Source: Syntrophomonadaceae bacterium (lineage in GTDB: Bacteria > Bacillota > Dethiobacteria > DTU022). Taken from it: 33,987 nt of DNA. The translations under genes were made by a program, and so were the position numbers. This document shows, piece by piece, positions 3,818 through 26,032 of the stretch. The notes under the pieces were generated by a model. That model did not search any database and was not told the origin of the DNA. It worked only from the letters and a program-made list of their open reading frames with translations. The DNA is taken from the NCBI GenBank assembly GCA_007119965.1, contig SKOR01000022.1, forward strand, positions 1 to 33,987, written 5' to 3'. Within the stretch, counting starts at the first letter, position 1, and each line of letters begins with the position of its first letter.

Positions 3818-5317
3818 TTATTTTCGATTATTGCGAGCTTTCTGCAGGTGATAGCGCAGGGCCCGGGGAGTAATGCCCAAGAGCTTTGCCGCTTTTACCT
3901 GGTTGCCGTAGGTGTCCTCCAGGGCCGCTTCGATAATGCCGGCTATCAGTGAATCCCGCCATTGATTGATATCCCGGCAGAAAAGATCAAAGTCAAAGCC
4001 ATCCCGAATTTTAATGGATTCAAAAAGCGCCTCCTGAAAGGATTCTAACAACCCGTTCAACCCGGCCCCATCTTCAACGATGCCCGAAAAGAGAACACCG
4101 TTCGAGTTTTTACCTTCTGCCGTGTCCTGCAGTATTTGCTCCGGTTCAGCAGTGTTTTTGCGAATACGTTCCGGGAGGTCTTCAACATCGATCAGCGCCC
4201 CTTTGCAGAGCAGGAGGGCCTGTGCCACTGTGTTGGAGAGTTCCCTGATATTGCCCGGCCAGCGGTGTTTTTTCATAACGGCCAGGGCATCATCCGTAAA
4301 TAACTTGATCGGGATCTGCTTGGCAGCAGATTCTTTTTTCAGGAAGTAGTCGATAAAAATCTCAATGTCATCGGGCCTTTCCCTAAGTGGGGGGATGGTT
4401 AAAGAGGCGACATCCAGGCGGTAAAAAAGATCTTCGCGAAACCGGTTGTCTGCTACTTTAGCCGCCAGGTCAGCATTTGTTGCCGTGATAATGCGGACAT
4501 CTACCTTGCACATTTCTTCCCCGCCGACTCGTAAAAATTCTCCCGTTTCCAATACGCGCAGCAGCTTAATTTGAATAGCCGGACTGGCGGAGTCAATTTC
4601 GTCAAGAAACAGGGTTGCCTTGTTAGCCTGTTCAAAAATCCCCTTTTTTTGCTGCGCAGCCCCGGTAAAGGAGCCTTTTTCATGACCAAAAAGTTCACTT
4701 TCAAGGAGCGTTTCAGTAAAAGCGCCGCAGTTGAAAGCGAGGAATGACCGGTCACAACGATGGCTTGCTGAATGGATGTAGCGGGCCAGGACTTCTTTCC
4801 CGGTTCCGGTTTCGCCCTGGATCAGGACGGTAATATTTTTTTTGGCAATCTTTTGTGCTGCAGAAACCAGGCCGAGCATTTTTTGGCTATTACCGACAAC
4901 AAACCCTAATTCCTGCCGGGCGAGCGAAAGTTTTTCAGATTCCTCTTTTACATTCAGCGAGCGATCCAGCAGGTGCTCCATTTCATTAATATCGACGAAC
5001 GGTTTTTCCACGTAATCGAAGGCGCCGAGCTGGATGGCCTCCACGGCAGACTTTACTGTAGAGTACCCTGTAATGATTATAACTTCACACTGCGGCTGAA
5101 CATTTTTTATTTCCCTTAAGATATCCAAACCGTTAGCATCGGGCAGCTTCAGGTCAACCAGCGCAGTTGCAAAGTTGTACTGTTCCAATCTTGCTGAAGC
5201 CTCTGCCCCGGTATTGGCAGTAACCGCAGCGTAGCCTTTTTGTTTAAGGAGATAGCTGAAAAAGTTGCATACTTCCTGTTCGTCATCAACGATCAAAAAC
5301 CGGGGTTGTTCCGCCAT
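3818..5317 (-). CDS. Sigma-54-dependent response regulator (NtrC family)
   Basis: A 499-residue enhancer-binding activator with the classic three-part layout. The receiver domain (about 5-120) has the acidic pair D11/D12, phospho-acceptor D55 and K105. The AAA+ domain has Walker A GETGTGKE at 168-175, the sigma-54 contact loop GAFTGA, Walker B LFLDEID, and an LRERPDDI segment. A C-terminal Fis-type helix-turn-helix (about 460-495, NQVKAAKLLGITPRALRYHL) binds DNA. An unusually long linker of about 80 residues separates the AAA+ domain from the helix-turn-helix. It is the last gene of the cluster, 34 nt after the histidine kinase, and GGAGGGAAG precedes the ATG. The near-consensus sigma-54 promoter and dyads before the channel gene are its likely target (inference). 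Confidence 0.93.
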   Translation of the reverse strand: MAEQPRFLIVDDEQEVCNFFSYLLKQKGYAAVTANTGAEASARLEQYNFATALVDLKLPDANGLDILREIKNVQPQCEVIIITGYSTVKSAVEAIQLGAFDYVEKPFVDINEMEHLLDRSLNVKEESEKLSLARQELGFVVGNSQKMLGLVSAAQKIAKKNITVLIQGETGTGKEVLARYIHSASHRCDRSFLAFNCGAFTETLLESELFGHEKGSFTGAAQQKKGIFEQANKATLFLDEIDSASPAIQIKLLRVLETGEFLRVGGEEMCKVDVRIITATNADLAAKVADNRFREDLFYRLDVASLTIPPLRERPDDIEIFIDYFLKKESAAKQIPIKLFTDDALAVMKKHRWPGNIRELSNTVAQALLLCKGALIDVEDLPERIRKNTAEPEQILQDTAEGKNSNGVLFSGIVEDGAGLNGLLESFQEALFESIKIRDGFDFDLFCRDINQWRDSLIAGIIEAALEDTYGNQVKAAKLLGITPRALRYHLQKARNNRK

Positions 5318-5351: not shown

Positions 5352-6548
5352 TTAATCACACTGCATTTTCATAGTGCCGTTTTTAACGGGCGCCTCCTGA
5401 TCAAGGGGCAGGATTAAGCTGAACGTACTTCCCTCGCCAACGGTTGTATCGAGATCAATGAAGCCGCCGTGCGCCTGGGCGATACCGAGGCTGACCGATA
5501 AACCGAGCCCGGTCCCTTTGCCGCTTGATTTTGTAGTATAAAAAGGGTTAAATATTTGCGAGACATGCTCCTGCTCTATACCGTGACCGTTATCGGATAC
5601 ATCTACTATCGCAAACTCGTTGTCGGGGTGAATCCTGGTTTTGATGGTGACAATTCCTTTTTCGCCATTCTTTTCAGTCTGCATTTTTTCTTCTACAGCA
5701 TCTTTGGCATTCAGCAGAAGGTTTACAATAATTTGTTCCAGGCCGTTGCCGCTGCCTGACAGCGCGGGAACGTTTTCATAAAGGTCGACAACCAGGTCAA
5801 TCTTGCTTTTTTCGATCTGGTAAGCGGCCAGCTCCAGGCCGCTCTTAACTATTGTATTTAAGTCGATTTTTTCAAAGGTAAACTCATCCTGCCTGGAAAA
5901 GGTCATCAGGTTTTTTATAATCCGCTGGCAGCGGATACCGCTGGTATGAATGTCCTTAATTAACTGATAATGAGGGTTGTCGGGGGATGCTTCCCTGAGG
6001 AGCAGCTGTGAATTCCCAACAATTGCTGTCAGGGGGCTGTTCAATTCATGGGCAACTCCGGCCGACATTTCGCCCATCGAGGCCAGTTTGATCGAATCGA
6101 TCAGGCGGGTTACATCTTTGGCGTAATATGTTACGCCGTAAGGTTTATTTTGCTCGGTAAAAGCCGGGTAGGCAAATATATCGAGCACCCGGTTATAACG
6201 GGTCCTCGATTGCAGGTAAGATGTTTTCTGGGTATTTAAAACCTGGTCGCCAATGCAGGGGCTGCACTTTTCTTCGCGGCCGTAAAATAATTTATAGCAT
6301 TTTGAACCAAGCAGATCACTTTCAGGGGTTGTGAAAAAATCAACAGCAGCCTTGTTCACCCGTTGGATTTCGTAATCGCTGTTAATGAAAACCAGCAGAT
6401 CGGTGACTGCAGAAAAAGTAACTTCCCATTCGCGTTTAATTTGCAGCAGTTCATTGATCTTTTCCTTTAATGCGACGTAGTAAGATTTTTTTGAACTGTG
6501 AACTCCGGTTAGCTTTTCAATCAGCTCTTTTTTGTTTTGCATAACCAT
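5352..6548 (-). CDS. Soluble PAS-domain sensor histidine kinase
   Basis: A 398-residue histidine kinase with no membrane segment, so it senses a cytoplasmic signal. A coiled stretch (about 1-40) is followed by a PAS domain (about 41-150), then a HisKA domain with phospho-acceptor H167 in AGVAHELNSPLTAI. The HATPase domain has an N box near NLLLNAKDAV, then DNGHGIE and GKGTGLGLSVS. The PAS domain carries C84, C95 and C98 in a CYKLF-x6-CSPC arrangement, a pattern seen in other PAS proteins that could bind metal or sense redox (inference). Its ATG overlaps the stop of the upstream ADH-like gene by 1 nt (TAATG), so the two are translationally coupled. The response regulator follows and is the obvious partner. 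Confidence 0.93.
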   Translation of the reverse strand: MVMQNKKELIEKLTGVHSSKKSYYVALKEKINELLQIKREWEVTFSAVTDLLVFINSDYEIQRVNKAAVDFFTTPESDLLGSKCYKLFYGREEKCSPCIGDQVLNTQKTSYLQSRTRYNRVLDIFAYPAFTEQNKPYGVTYYAKDVTRLIDSIKLASMGEMSAGVAHELNSPLTAIVGNSQLLLREASPDNPHYQLIKDIHTSGIRCQRIIKNLMTFSRQDEFTFEKIDLNTIVKSGLELAAYQIEKSKIDLVVDLYENVPALSGSGNGLEQIIVNLLLNAKDAVEEKMQTEKNGEKGIVTIKTRIHPDNEFAIVDVSDNGHGIEQEHVSQIFNPFYTTKSSGKGTGLGLSVSLGIAQAHGGFIDLDTTVGEGSTFSLILPLDQEAPVKNGTMKMQCD

Positions 6549-7717
6549 TATTGCTCACCATCCTTTGCCTCTAAGGCAGAGCGAAAGATATTTATAATGT
6601 CGTCTTCATCAGCGTCCCTGGGGTTGGTTATGAAACAGGCATCATTAATGGCATTGCGGCTCAGGTTTGGAATGGAATCTTCCGGTAAGCCGAGTTCGGC
6701 CAGGCCTGAAGGAATGCCCACGTCCCGGGCAAGTTCACGCACCATGTTGATCGCTTCTTCCGCTTTTTCACGTGTTGACATGTTGTCAGTTTGTGCTCCC
6801 ATAACTTCGGCAATGGAGGCATATTTATCGACACAGGCAATTAAATTAAAGCGCATTACATAAGGCAGCAGGACGGCGTTAATTGTGCCGATCGGCAGGT
6901 CAAGCAGTCCGCCTACCTGGTGGGTCATGGCGTGGGTCAGTCCGAGAACAGCATTGGAAAAGGCTATCCCTGCATGTAAGCTTGCTTTGCTCATGGCGAT
7001 TTTCGCGGCTTCATCGACCTGGCTGGCTACCGATGACCTGAGGTTGGCAGAGATTAATTTAATGGCGTGCAAAGCATGGATGTCGGTCATATCAGTGGCT
7101 GCCAAAGACAGGTAAGCTTCAATGGCATGGCTGAGGGCTTCCATGCCGGTGTGCGCAGTCACTTTGCTATTTACCGTTGACAGGATCAGCGGGTCGGTAA
7201 TAGCGATATCCGGGACGAGTGACTTTGAAATAATGGTCATCTTTATTTTTCTTTTGCTGTCAGATATAATCGCAAACTGTGAAACTTCCGCCCCGGAGCC
7301 TGCCGTGGAAGGGATCACAATTAAAGGCGGCAGGGGTTCTTTGATCATATCAATACCTTCAAAGTCATGAATCTTTCCCCGGTTAGTTGACAGGGTGGCC
7401 ACAGCTTTTGCGGCATCAACAGCGCTGCCTCCCCCGATCGCCAGGACGGCATCACAGCCGCAATCGTTAAAAAGAATAGCTCCTTCTTCCACTTCGTAAT
7501 CTCTCGGGTTCGCAGAAAAATCTGTCCAGAGCCGGTACTCGAGATTTGCTTCATTCAGAAAAAAAATCGCTTTTTCGACCCACCCGCAGATGAGAACTCC
7601 GGGGTCGGCTACCAGGAAAACACGGGATGAACCGAGGCGGCTGCAGCATTCACCGGCCTGGCTCAGGGAACCGGTACCGTAAATAATTTCCGGGGTTACA
7701 AATTTACTGATATACAT
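6548..7717 (-). CDS. Fe-ADH superfamily protein, ErcA-like, with altered metal site
   Basis: A 389-residue member of the iron-containing alcohol dehydrogenase superfamily. The NAD(P)-binding GGGSAVDAAK motif (about 95-104) and the STAGSGAEVSQFAIISD segment are present. The fold pattern, including KFVTPEIIYG near the start, NPRDYEV, HDFEGID and ISKSLVPDIAI, resembles ErcA as I remember it. ErcA is an ADH homologue encoded beside a PAS kinase in Pseudomonas and implicated in regulating ethanol use. Against FucO (D196, H200, H263, H277) the aligned residues are E193, H197, H262 and I276, so two of four metal ligands are changed. The ATG chosen follows AAAGGCGG by 8 nt; an in-frame TTG 21 nt upstream lacks a good site. 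It could be a sensor or accessory protein rather than a dehydrogenase. Confidence 0.85.
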   Translation of the reverse strand: MYISKFVTPEIIYGTGSLSQAGECCSRLGSSRVFLVADPGVLICGWVEKAIFFLNEANLEYRLWTDFSANPRDYEVEEGAILFNDCGCDAVLAIGGGSAVDAAKAVATLSTNRGKIHDFEGIDMIKEPLPPLIVIPSTAGSGAEVSQFAIISDSKRKIKMTIISKSLVPDIAITDPLILSTVNSKVTAHTGMEALSHAIEAYLSLAATDMTDIHALHAIKLISANLRSSVASQVDEAAKIAMSKASLHAGIAFSNAVLGLTHAMTHQVGGLLDLPIGTINAVLLPYVMRFNLIACVDKYASIAEVMGAQTDNMSTREKAEEAINMVRELARDVGIPSGLAELGLPEDSIPNLSRNAINDACFITNPRDADEDDIINIFRSALEAKDGEQ

Positions 7718-7818
7718 ATTTGCATCCGCCTTTGGCAATAATTTATAGTTAACCTGTTTGCTCCATTATTCTTGATTCGGACACATAAATCCTTTATATT
7801 TGGTGGGGTATTAATGAA

Positions 7819-7889: not shown

Positions 7890-8153
7890 TCATCTGCCCG
7901 GCAGTAGCGCCGGTTCCCTGTTGATCTCGTTCCCCTTTGCATGCGATTCTTCATATATTTCAGGGACCAGCCCAAAGCCGACATTGTTTTCCATTGTCTT
8001 TTTGCAGCTGCTTCTCTGCTGTTCTGTGCAGCCGCAGCTTTTCGCTTCTGTTACCGACAATTTTTTCCCGTATGCCCCGGCGCTGCAGAACATAACCCAC
8101 CCGTTGAGTCCGTGGTATTCTTTCCAGTGTTCGCAGTTGACCAGCTTTTTCAT
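7890..8153 (-). CDS. Small four-cysteine protein, stand-alone copy of the channel's N-terminal domain
   Basis: An 87-residue soluble protein that I cannot assign to a named family. Cysteines lie at 7, 23, 40, 42 and 50. Four of them (7, 23, 42, 50) have the spacing C-x15-C-x18-C-x7-C, identical to the N-terminal domain of the channel encoded just upstream. Without gaps, about 21 of 59 positions are identical, including W10, E12-Y13, G18, V20, G41-C42-T43, R47, M54-E55 and a VGxGxxPE ending. The start follows AAGGAG; a longer open frame of 19 more codons has no ribosome site. It lies 57 nt after the channel stop codon. Four conserved cysteines suggest a metal or Fe-S site (inference). Confidence 0.8.
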   Translation of the reverse strand: MKKLVNCEHWKEYHGLNGWVMFCSAGAYGKKLSVTEAKSCGCTEQQRSSCKKTMENNVGFGLVPEIYEESHAKGNEINREPALLPGR

Positions 8154-8210: not shown

Positions 8211-9302
8211 TTAGGTTCGCCCGTTGAGAATAAGGCTTTTCGGCAGGTTCGGACGCAGATAGCAGGTCCAGTAGGCGACAGCAACAAATAATACCCCGCC
8301 GATAATGTTGCCGATAGTAACCGGGATCAGGTTGCTAAAAAAGAACGCCTGCCAGGTGATACCCTGCATTACCGTCGGTGAAACCAAGGCCTGGGCAAAT
8401 TCGGCGTTTTTAACCAGCAGCCCCATGGGAATAAAAAACATGTTGGCTATAGAGTGTTCAAAACCGGCAGCGACGAAAGCTGTAATTGGAATCATGATTG
8501 CCAGTATTTTGCTAATCGCATCTTTTCCGGCCAGGGCGATCCAGACGGCAAGGCAGACCAGCCAGTTGCAGAGAATGCCGCGGAAAAGCGCTTCACTCCA
8601 GGTCAGGCTTGTTTTGGCAGAGGCTATATCAATAATTCTTACAGCGATACTGCCGTCGTTTGCCTGCCAGATTCCTGAGAAGAAAAACAGGATCACAACA
8701 ACGAGCGCGCCAACAAAGTTGAAAATGTAAACCCAAAACCAGTTTGAGAGGACCTGCCTTCCGCTCACTTTTTTCTCCAGGTAACCGGCTGCAAGCAGGT
8801 TGTTCCCTGTAAACAGCTCAGCCCCTCCGAGAATGACCAGGATTAACCCGATTGAAAAGGTAACTCCACCTACCAGGCGGCTTAAACCGTCGCCGATATA
8901 GATTGCCAGGTCATTAGTGATAATGGTGAACATTACAGCGCCCAGTGCGATGTAGGCCCCGGCAAGGATCGCCAGCATGACAAGGGCGGGAGCGGCCAGG
9001 GCAGTTTTTTTCTGAGCAGTTCCGACAACTGTTTTGGCAATCTCCTGTGGCGGGTCGCATGTTAAAACGGGTGGCGACATTGGCGCCGGGACAGGCTGCA
9101 GGGCAGGCAGTTCTTCGGGGATTACCCCTGCCCCTACAGCGAGCTCCATGCTTTTCAGACAATCTTTTCTTTTGTCCGGGGTGCAGCCGATTGCCATCAG
9201 GAACTGGGGATTTACCGGCCTGTTGAAGGCCGCCAGTTCACAGTAGCATACATGGCCTGCAATTGAATCGTATTCATTCCAGAATGCACACATGTCTTTC
9301 AT
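8211..9302 (-). CDS. Formate/nitrite-family channel with N-terminal four-Cys domain
   Basis: A 363-residue protein in two parts. Residues about 1-65 are a hydrophilic domain with C5, C21, C40 and C48 (plus C19), matching the neighbouring small protein. A Pro-rich linker (about 66-95) leads to a FocA/NirC-type channel at about 100-355. Channel hallmarks include GAYIALGAVMF, GAELFTGNN, NWFWVYIFNFVGAL, CNWLVCLAVW, GFEHSIANMFFIPMG (with the conserved pore His) and PVTIGNIIGG, all closest to FocA-type formate channels. A usual FNT protein is about 260-290 residues, so the extra length is the cysteine domain. FocA N-termini are cytoplasmic, so this domain should sit inside and could gate the pore. 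GAGGAGG precedes the ATG. It is the first gene after the sigma-54 promoter. Substrate (formate, nitrite or another small anion) is not proven. Confidence 0.93.
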   Translation of the reverse strand: MKDMCAFWNEYDSIAGHVCYCELAAFNRPVNPQFLMAIGCTPDKRKDCLKSMELAVGAGVIPEELPALQPVPAPMSPPVLTCDPPQEIAKTVVGTAQKKTALAAPALVMLAILAGAYIALGAVMFTIITNDLAIYIGDGLSRLVGGVTFSIGLILVILGGAELFTGNNLLAAGYLEKKVSGRQVLSNWFWVYIFNFVGALVVVILFFFSGIWQANDGSIAVRIIDIASAKTSLTWSEALFRGILCNWLVCLAVWIALAGKDAISKILAIMIPITAFVAAGFEHSIANMFFIPMGLLVKNAEFAQALVSPTVMQGITWQAFFFSNLIPVTIGNIIGGVLFVAVAYWTCYLRPNLPKSLILNGRT

Positions 9303-9354: not shown

Positions 9355-9370
9355 TGCAATCTGCATGCCA
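9355..9370 (-). promoter_or_regulatory. Sigma-54 promoter (-24/-12) for the channel cluster
   Basis: On the minus strand the sequence reads TGGCATG-CAGA-TTGCA, against the consensus TGGCACG-N4-TTGCA, with the GG and GC at the required spacing. Transcription would start near 9344, about 40 nt before the channel ATG. The sigma-54 activator at the end of the same cluster makes this a very credible promoter. Confidence 0.9.
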
Positions 9371-9497: not shown

Positions 9498-9533
9498 GTC
9501 ACAAAAGTGACGCAAACAAGTCACCTGGGTAAC
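9498..9533. promoter_or_regulatory. Tandem dyads, candidate enhancer for the sigma-54 activator
   Basis: Two similar dyads lie in tandem: GTCAC-N4-GTGAC at 9498-9511 (perfect) and GTCAC-N4-GTAAC at 9520-9533 (one mismatch). Their centres are 22 bp apart, two helical turns. They lie roughly 150-170 bp upstream of the -12 element, the usual distance for sigma-54 enhancers. Binding by the cluster's Fis-type activator is an inference from position and symmetry. Confidence 0.65.
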
Positions 9534-24268: not shown

Positions 24269-26032
24269 ATGGCATTAGATCCAACCAAACATGCCGACTG
24301 GGAAATAGCTGAAGCTGCTGAATCAGGCATGAAAAAGGTATACCAGTTGGCAGAGGAGCTCAAGCTTGAGCAGGAAGAGCTCCTTCCCCACGGCCACTAT
24401 GTGGCTAAAGTTGACTACAAGAAAGTACTTGACAGAAAGAAAGATGCCCCCGGTGGAAAATATATCGATGTTACTGCGATTACACCCACCCCGCTCGGCG
24501 AAGGAAAATCAACATCAACCATGGGCTTGACCCAGGGGATGGGCAAACTGGGTAAAAATGTTCTGGCGACTATCCGCCAGCCATCAGGCGGGCCGACCAT
24601 GAACGTTAAGGGTTCTGCCGCAGGTGGCGGTTTAGCCCAGTGTATTCCTTTGACCCCCTTTTCTCTCGGTTTAACCGGGGACATCAATGCAATCATGAAT
24701 GCCCACAACCTGGGTATGGTCGCTTTGAACTCCCGCCTGCAGCACGAAGCTAACTCCACCGATGCTTTTATGGAGCGCAGTGGCCTGAAGCGGTTAAATA
24801 TCGATCCGAAAAATGTATCTATGAACTGGATTATTGACTTTTGCGCCCAGGGCCTGCGTAATATCATCATTGGCCTTGGCGGAAGAAAAGACGGCTTCAT
24901 GATGAGCTCAGGGTTCAATATTGCGGTTTCTTCCGAGGTTATGGCGATTCTGGCTGTTGCCAATGATTTAAAAGATATGCGCGAACGGATGGGCAAGATT
25001 GTGGTTGCTTACGATAAAAGAGGCAAACCGGTGACCACTGAAGATCTCGATGTTGCCGGTGCGATGACCGCCTGGATGGTTGAAGCAATCAACCCCAACC
25101 TGATGCAAACCCTTGAAGGACAGCCGGTCTTTGTTCATGCCGGCCCGTTTGCAAATATTGCTATTGGTCAGTCTTCAATTATTGCTGACCGGGTTGGCCT
25201 AAAACTTAGCGATTATGTGATCACCGAGTCGGGTTTTGCAGCCGATATCGGTTTCGAGAAATTCTGGAACCTGAAGTGCCGCATGTCCGGCCTGACTCCT
25301 GACTGCGCAGTTCTCGTGGCCACCATTCGTGCTCTTAAGTGTCACGGTGGAGCGCCGCTGCCGCAGCCGGGCCAGCCGCTTGATCCCGCTTACAAAGAGG
25401 AAAATGTTGAGTGGGTGGAAAAAGGCTGTGAAAACTTAATTCACCATATTAATACCGTAAAAAAAGCCGGGATCAGCCCGGTAGTTTGCATTAACCACTT
25501 CTATACTGATACTGATAACGAAGTTAATGCTGTTCGCCGCCTGGCAGAAGCAGCAGGCGCCAGGGTTGCTCTTTCCAAGCACTGGCAGTACGGTGGCGAC
25601 GGAGCCAAGGAATTTGCCGAAGCTGTGGTCGAAGCCTGTGATGAACCGACCGATTTCAAATTCCTTTACGAATTAGAAACCCCGCTGCGTGAGCGTATTG
25701 ATCTGATTGCCAGGGAAGTGTACGGAGCAGACGGTGTTGAGTATTCTCCCGATGCGCTTGCGAAAGCTAAAAAGATGGAACAGGATCCCCAGATCCAAAA
25801 GATGGGTACCTGCATGGTTAAGACTCACCTCAGCCTCAGCGATAATCCTATGCTAAAAGGTGTTCCGAAAGGCTGGAAACTTAACATCCGCGATATTCTC
25901 ACCTACGGTGGGGCCGATTTCGTAGTGCCTGTTGCCGGGGCGATCTCCCTGATGCCCGGAACTGCTGCCAGTCCTGCTTACCGCAAGGTTGACGTTGATG
26001 TCGAAACCGGTAAAGTGCAGGGCTTGTTCTAA
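24269..26032 (+). CDS. fhs: Formate--tetrahydrofolate ligase
   Basis: Makes 10-formyl-THF from formate, THF and ATP, the entry step of the methyl branch of the Wood-Ljungdahl pathway and of C1 metabolism generally. The P-loop [10 protein letters not shown] is near residues 74-83, followed by [19 protein letters not shown], the [12 protein letters not shown] segment, [14 protein letters not shown] and a [11 protein letters not shown] ending. At 587 residues it is about 30 longer than the common 555-560-residue enzyme. AAGGAGG precedes the ATG. It stands alone with terminators behind it; other C1-pathway genes are not in the window. Strong translation signals fit a highly expressed enzyme (inference). 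Confidence 0.97.

Follow-up and report, generated by a model that had tools for sequence, protein, structure and literature searches.

Alcohol dehydrogenase-like proteins as kinase partners

The closest described systems are those of Pseudomonas, in which ErcA (PA1991) and YiaY (PP_2682), two proteins of the Fe-ADH family with a regulatory role, are encoded together with the hybrid kinases ErcS and PP_2683, respectively, and have been proposed to serve these kinases as sensory partners (PMC12997753; PMC7427536). Genetic data show that the induction of alcohol oxidation by way of the co-encoded kinase depends on ErcA/YiaY as well as on the kinase itself (PMC12997753; PMC7427536; PMC10308882), and the target cluster is repressed when either the ADH or its kinase is inactivated (PMC12997753). 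By which mechanism an ErcA-type ADH acts on the kinase, catalysis or binding, is regarded as unresolved in the literature on these systems (PMC12997753). Control by sigma54 is found in the AdhR/AorR regulons of Clostridiales, whose targets are adhA and aor, and the portion of that report drawn on here describes neither an ADH-like kinase partner nor a formate channel as target (PMC6615313). Within the Fe-ADH superfamily, the maleylacetate reductases function metal-free (PMC5125639), but they carry other substitutions, are distant in sequence and work as enzymes in aromatic degradation, with no kinase as partner.

The locus described here lies in a window of 33,987 nucleotides, which is the whole stretch of DNA that was analyzed (Table 1). 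Like the Pseudomonas pairs, it encodes an Fe-ADH-family protein together with a kinase, and here too the former is proposed to be the sensory partner of the latter. In contrast to the Pseudomonas systems, which control PQQ-dependent alcohol oxidation by way of the LuxR-type AgmR and in which the ADH is described as Fe2+-dependent, two metal ligands have been lost, regulation depends on sigma54 and is probably directed at an FNT channel. ADH-type kinase partners as such were known already, while the lost metal ligands, the sigma54 output, the channel target and a 4-Cys domain are new here. We regard it as fairly probable that the ADH-like protein is a metal-free ErcA homolog that acts as the sensory subunit of the kinase, and that this unit controls a FocA-like (formate) channel.

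Table 1. Positions of the genes and sequence elements of the locus within the window.
Feature	Position	Strand	Description
NtrC-type sigma54 response regulator	3818..5317	-	Receiver, AAA+ with GSFTGA loop, Fis HTH
Histidine kinase	5352..6548	-	N-terminal motif, PAS, HisKA (H-box HELNSP), HATPase
Kinase residues 9-28, LIEKLTGVHSSKKSYYVALK	6465..6524	-	Motif conserved in ErcA-linked kinases; candidate docking site
ErcA-type Fe-ADH homolog	6548..7717	-	389 aa; ligand set E193-H197-H262-I276; proposed sensory subunit
I276 codon, ATC	6890..6892	-	Fourth metal-ligand position; His in relatives
E193 codon, GAA	7139..7141	-	First metal-ligand position; Asp in relatives
Stand-alone 4-Cys protein	7890..8153	-	87 aa from ATG 8153; C-x15-C-x18-C-x7-C
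FNT-family (FocA-like) formate/nitrite-type channel	8211..9302	-	Extra ~80-aa 4-Cys N-terminal region
sigma54 -24/-12 promoter, TGGCATGCAGATTGCA	9355..9370	-	~52 nt upstream of channel start
Upstream activator palindrome, TGACTTGTTTGCGTCA	9508..9523	.	Consensus TGACGYAWWTRCGTCA; 137 nt upstream of -24 box

Family and fold of the ADH-like protein

The ADH-like reading frame begins at the ATG at 7717 (MYISKF...), a start common to the orthologs, while a TTG at 7738 is a mechanical alternative. In a profile search, the protein matches PF00465/PF25137 far over the cut-off, and its nearest relatives of known structure are the dehydrogenases of methanol, 1,3-propanediol and lactaldehyde. An AlphaFold2 model (pLDDT 90.7) superimposes on FucO, 1,3-propanediol dehydrogenase and methanol dehydrogenase with a TM score of about 0.95 (0.93 to 3BFJ), and both the Fe-ADH fold and the family of the protein are certain. 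The best named family is the NCBIfam equivalog ErcA (NF041833), which is matched with 470.9 bits at a cut-off of 550, so that the protein is ErcA-like but is not filed as ErcA. It is a member of the Fe-ADH superfamily, which includes metal-free subfamilies (PMC5125639), yet with E-H-H-I instead of D-H-H-H at the four ligand positions it does not qualify as a "metal-dependent Fe-ADH". An ordinary catalytic Fe-ADH was considered and rejected, as the three other Fe-ADHs of the genome keep DHHH and are only 34-39% identical to the ADH-like protein.

Two observations of the preliminary description, made from the letters of the window alone, concern this gene. The ligand columns E193, H197, H262 and I276, with spacings of 4 and 14 residues, are borne out by alignment to relatives. 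The stop codon of the ADH-like gene indeed shares 1 nt with the kinase start at 6548 (TAATG), although this overlap is found in some relatives but not in all, others having the two genes 2 to about 35 nt apart.

Replacement of two metal ligands

Fifteen related loci from named genomes were compared together with EHHI loci from a class-level search, and fixation was counted over non-redundant full-length orthologs of 70-87% identity (n = 26). E193 and I276 are present in 26/26 of these orthologs, which belong to three families of one class; the ligand set is EHHI in 25 and EHQI in one (L024), in which H262 is gone too. Asp and His at the two positions are kept in all 27 ErcA-type relatives outside the substituted clade (52-60% identical; DHHH) and in 6/6 neighboring catalytic Fe-ADHs. 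In the tree, the substituted set forms a single clade (support 100/100) nested among intact relatives, and on this phylogeny the E193/I276 substitutions are of single origin. Chance or a sequencing error in one MAG is ruled out by the fixation of the substitutions in 26 orthologs.

The nucleotide site has been preserved: the NAD(P) motif GGGSxxD and Asp38 are present, and the NAD-site columns D38, GGGS95-98, D101, T138, G140, K159 and H266 are invariant in all 26 orthologs, while H197, H262 and H266 are retained almost everywhere in the clade. NAD(H) binding, which the preliminary description had suggested, fits this intact site, and NAD(H) is the predicted ligand. The dN/dS ratio is about 0.03-0.08 where an estimate of dS is possible, synonymous sites being close to saturated, and by this measure the selection on the gene is purifying; together with the open frames, it rules out a pseudogene.

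The ADH-like protein probably no longer oxidizes alcohols and is predicted to lack both metal and catalysis. However, Glu is able to coordinate metal, and a site made of E-H-H might keep one in place. If E193, H197 and H262, completed by water or another side chain, held Fe, Zn or another metal in a rebuilt site, the protein would, as has been suggested for ErcA, sense alcohols or aldehydes through their oxidation. Glu commonly serves as a metal ligand, nearly all members still have two His, and the glycerol dehydrogenases of the wider superfamily use Zn although they have just one of the three conserved His (PMC5125639). A rebuilt site is nevertheless quite improbable in our judgment, given that I276 is invariant and cannot ligate, that L024 also lacks H262 and that the EHHI loci have a channel gene in place of the catalytic neighbors of their intact relatives (see below).

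A conserved cassette with a histidine kinase and a sigma54 regulator

The ADH-like protein, a PAS/GAF kinase and a sigma54 regulator are encoded side by side in all complete close loci fetched, and the same gene triple is found in most relatives at 52-60% identity. The regulator matches PF00072, PF00158 and PF02954, and its GSFTGA sequence is a GAFTGA-type loop. The kinase of the window is without the GAF region of ~165 aa found in most relatives, which was lost in the window's sub-clade, while the N-terminal motif LxxLTG(V/I)xSSKxxYYxxLK is kept in the ErcA-linked kinases of the phylum, even in those without GAF. The PAS domain of the kinase also contains a Cys motif, CYKLFYGREEKCSPC, a possible metal or Fe-S site.

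The genome G055 offers an apparent natural loss: of the ADH gene in its locus (L157, 2597-6454) only about 50 codons are left, next to a retained kinase, regulator and channel, and the N-terminal motif of the kinase has degraded to LVGINSSKNSYYPALK. Because the motif is conserved elsewhere and degraded in this one case, it is a plausible docking site for the ADH-like protein, which would contact the kinase there. Judging by G055, the ADH-like protein might be dispensable, or its part might be a modulatory one. The same genome bears on the idea that the protein is a ligand-free, passive scaffold, which only assembles or stabilizes the kinase while the input comes through GAF/PAS. PAS and GAF are the usual input domains of kinases, and the G055 kinase persists without a full ADH gene; but a scaffold would have no need of an invariant NAD motif, and the window's sub-clade has lost GAF yet retained the ADH-like protein, which leaves a mere scaffold very improbable.

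The cassette also bears on whether the protein is instead a metal-independent, NAD(H)-dependent reductase with a new chemistry, in a locus that would be a metabolic operon and encode regulators of its own. The maleylacetate reductases are active without the Asp ligand and without metal (PMC5125639), so that loss of ligands does not imply loss of catalysis, and a reductase would agree with the NAD site, the almost universally retained H197, H262 and H266, and the strong purifying selection. L024, however, is without H262 as well, the gene travels with a kinase and a regulator and not with a metabolic pathway, and ErcA relatives in such a position act in regulation (PMC12997753); hence we consider a reductase unlikely. 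A mixed case, in which the protein is a catalytic sensor, is a further possibility.

The FNT channel and the 4-Cys domain

The channel matches PF01226 with 271 bits, and FocA is the best PDB match of its FNT domain (E about 1e-52), with the pore Thr and His of FocA aligning to the channel in the GFEHSIANMF and LFT stretches. The FNT domain is thus shared with FocA, while the 4-Cys N-terminal region and the control by sigma54 and a palindrome are particular to the channel described here. The FNT family also carries nitrite and other small anions; formate is the predicted cargo of this channel.

The stand-alone 4-Cys protein is homologous to the N-terminal region of the channel, with W, Y and G invariant. 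In the substituted clade, the cassette is linked both to the channel and to such a separate 4-Cys protein. No Pfam family matches the 4-Cys domain, be it stand-alone or fused (channel N-terminus, about 9060-9302), and a structure model is of low confidence (pLDDT 65). The domain is previously undescribed and occurs in two forms, stand-alone and channel-fused. A second stand-alone 4-Cys gene is found on contig C94 of the same genome (L121, 280-535), with a sigma54 promoter and a perfect palindrome of its own. In another genome (G032, contig C23), a 171-aa frame contains two matches to the domain.

A sigma54 promoter and an upstream palindrome

In a scan for sigma54 promoters, 28/30 loci have a -24/-12 element ahead of the channel that is perfect or nearly so. 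The genome of the window contains rpoN and 15 perfect sigma54 sites, as against one match of a control pattern. By eye, other sigma54 promoters of this genome (L108-L122) precede genes resembling those of amino-acid, acyl-CoA and methylamine metabolism. Scans for sigma70-type promoters and terminators gave no more matches than shuffled sequences.

The palindrome TGACGYAWWTRCGTCA was recovered in 27/27 relatives in a leave-one-out search, four of which score weakly. With held-out scoring, only two of the 15 sigma54 promoters of the window's genome have it, namely those of the channel and of the second 4-Cys gene on C94. In a genome-wide pattern search the perfect palindrome occurs only at C94, while the window site has two mismatches, and at this laxity two other sites and an equal number of control matches appear, hence the weight rests on the combination of palindrome and sigma54 promoter. 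In G056, cassette and channel are on different contigs, and the channel still has both promoter and palindrome. The palindrome was also looked for before the promoters of DHHH loci, where it is absent, so that its link to the regulator is based on co-distribution and proximity. The sigma54 regulator of the cassette is the likely protein to bind the palindrome, although another regulator could read it.

Distribution of the channel and neighborhoods of intact relatives

Where an EHHI locus has enough flanking sequence, the channel gene nearly always lies upstream, the exception being L013, in which it is on another contig. Among 97 genomes of the class, the long channel is present in 27/27 EHHI genomes and in 4/70 others (Fisher 4e-20, uncorrected for phylogeny); since EHHI arose only once, the genome correlation overstates the evidence, and the association should be read as strong linkage following one evolutionary event. 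In three of the four non-EHHI genomes with the long channel, its gene is located near a contig end; the remaining genome is G055, whose ADH gene is truncated. The channel is lacking in those of the 97 genomes that encode DHHH ErcA-type proteins.

Fourteen longer loci of the phylum (L158-L171) show what surrounds a cassette with intact ligands. Like the locus described here, they have the three genes, the N-terminal kinase motif and sigma54 promoters on neighboring genes, but their ADH-like proteins are DHHH, they have no FNT channel, and 9/14 adjoin a catalytic Fe-ADH and/or an aldehyde:ferredoxin oxidoreductase (AOR). These ADH/AOR genes are preceded by sigma54 promoters in eight of the nine loci, and also in L016. 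EHHI loci are without neighboring catalytic ADH/AOR genes and have the channel instead; therefore, the ligand loss coincides with a shift of neighbors, and probably of target, from alcohol/aldehyde enzymes to the channel, a coincidence from which causality cannot be read. As DHHH relatives have the same cassette, the signaling role is apparently older than the ligand loss. The preliminary description had proposed such a role on the grounds that two ligands were replaced and that the gene overlaps the kinase gene: the role itself is well supported by the conserved gene triple and by ErcA/YiaY genetics, whereas the reasoning is to be corrected, in that it is the family and the gene neighborhood, not the ligand loss, that point to signaling.

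Further neighborhoods vary in composition. In one of the outgroup loci (L059/L166), a sigma54 promoter precedes a gene that by eye resembles formate-tetrahydrofolate ligase. On a Tsukamurella plasmid (L107, 4962-8124), an ErcA-like ADH (DHHH), a histidine kinase and a response regulator lie beside an NDMA-dependent methanol dehydrogenase and a mycofactocin gene. In L163 (5815-9164), a DHHH ErcA-type ADH precedes a 521-aa ORF and, in place of a sigma54-type regulator, a 216-aa ORF that resembles a response regulator. The window itself encodes a formate-tetrahydrofolate ligase (24293-26029), the only copy found in the genome, and contig C10 of the same genome (L173, 3655-5649) encodes the alpha subunit of a formate dehydrogenase, the frame of which contains one TGA, likely a selenocysteine codon.

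Model and significance

The reading of the ADH-like protein as a sensory subunit can be put as a sequence of steps. A descendant of the ErcA-type Fe-ADH regulators has lost two of the four metal ligands and kept its NAD(H) site, so that what was an enzyme now seems to form part of a sensor. It may bind NAD(H), perhaps with the former substrate pocket occupied by a small carboxylate or aldehyde, and would signal its state via the N-terminal kinase motif, which reads LTGxHSSKKSYY. The kinase would then phosphorylate the sigma54 regulator, and the regulator, bound to TGACGYAWWTRCGTCA, would turn on the operon of the channel and the 4-Cys protein together with sigma54. The second 4-Cys gene elsewhere in the genome would be switched on likewise. 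Most likely, the formate channel is switched on by the activator of this cassette, and the formate metabolism genes of the genome (the formate-tetrahydrofolate ligase and the formate dehydrogenase with its in-frame TGA) count in favor of the model as a whole. More tentatively, and with somewhat less than an even chance in our estimation, a former alcohol dehydrogenase without metal has become an NAD(H)/carboxylate-responsive sensory subunit, and the target of the whole unit has moved from ethanol/aldehyde genes to a formate channel with a 4-Cys domain.

Since a natural clade combines a metal site changed past what normal coordination allows with a module under selection, it becomes directly testable whether sensing proceeds by catalysis or by binding, and the outgroup loci, which are already aligned and have their ligands intact, can serve as controls. 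The locus further offers a small, testable sigma54 regulon, in which two promoters share one palindrome, for the FocA-like channel of anaerobes that metabolize formate. If the more tentative reading is true, the unit would tie the formate flux of these anaerobes to their intracellular redox state.
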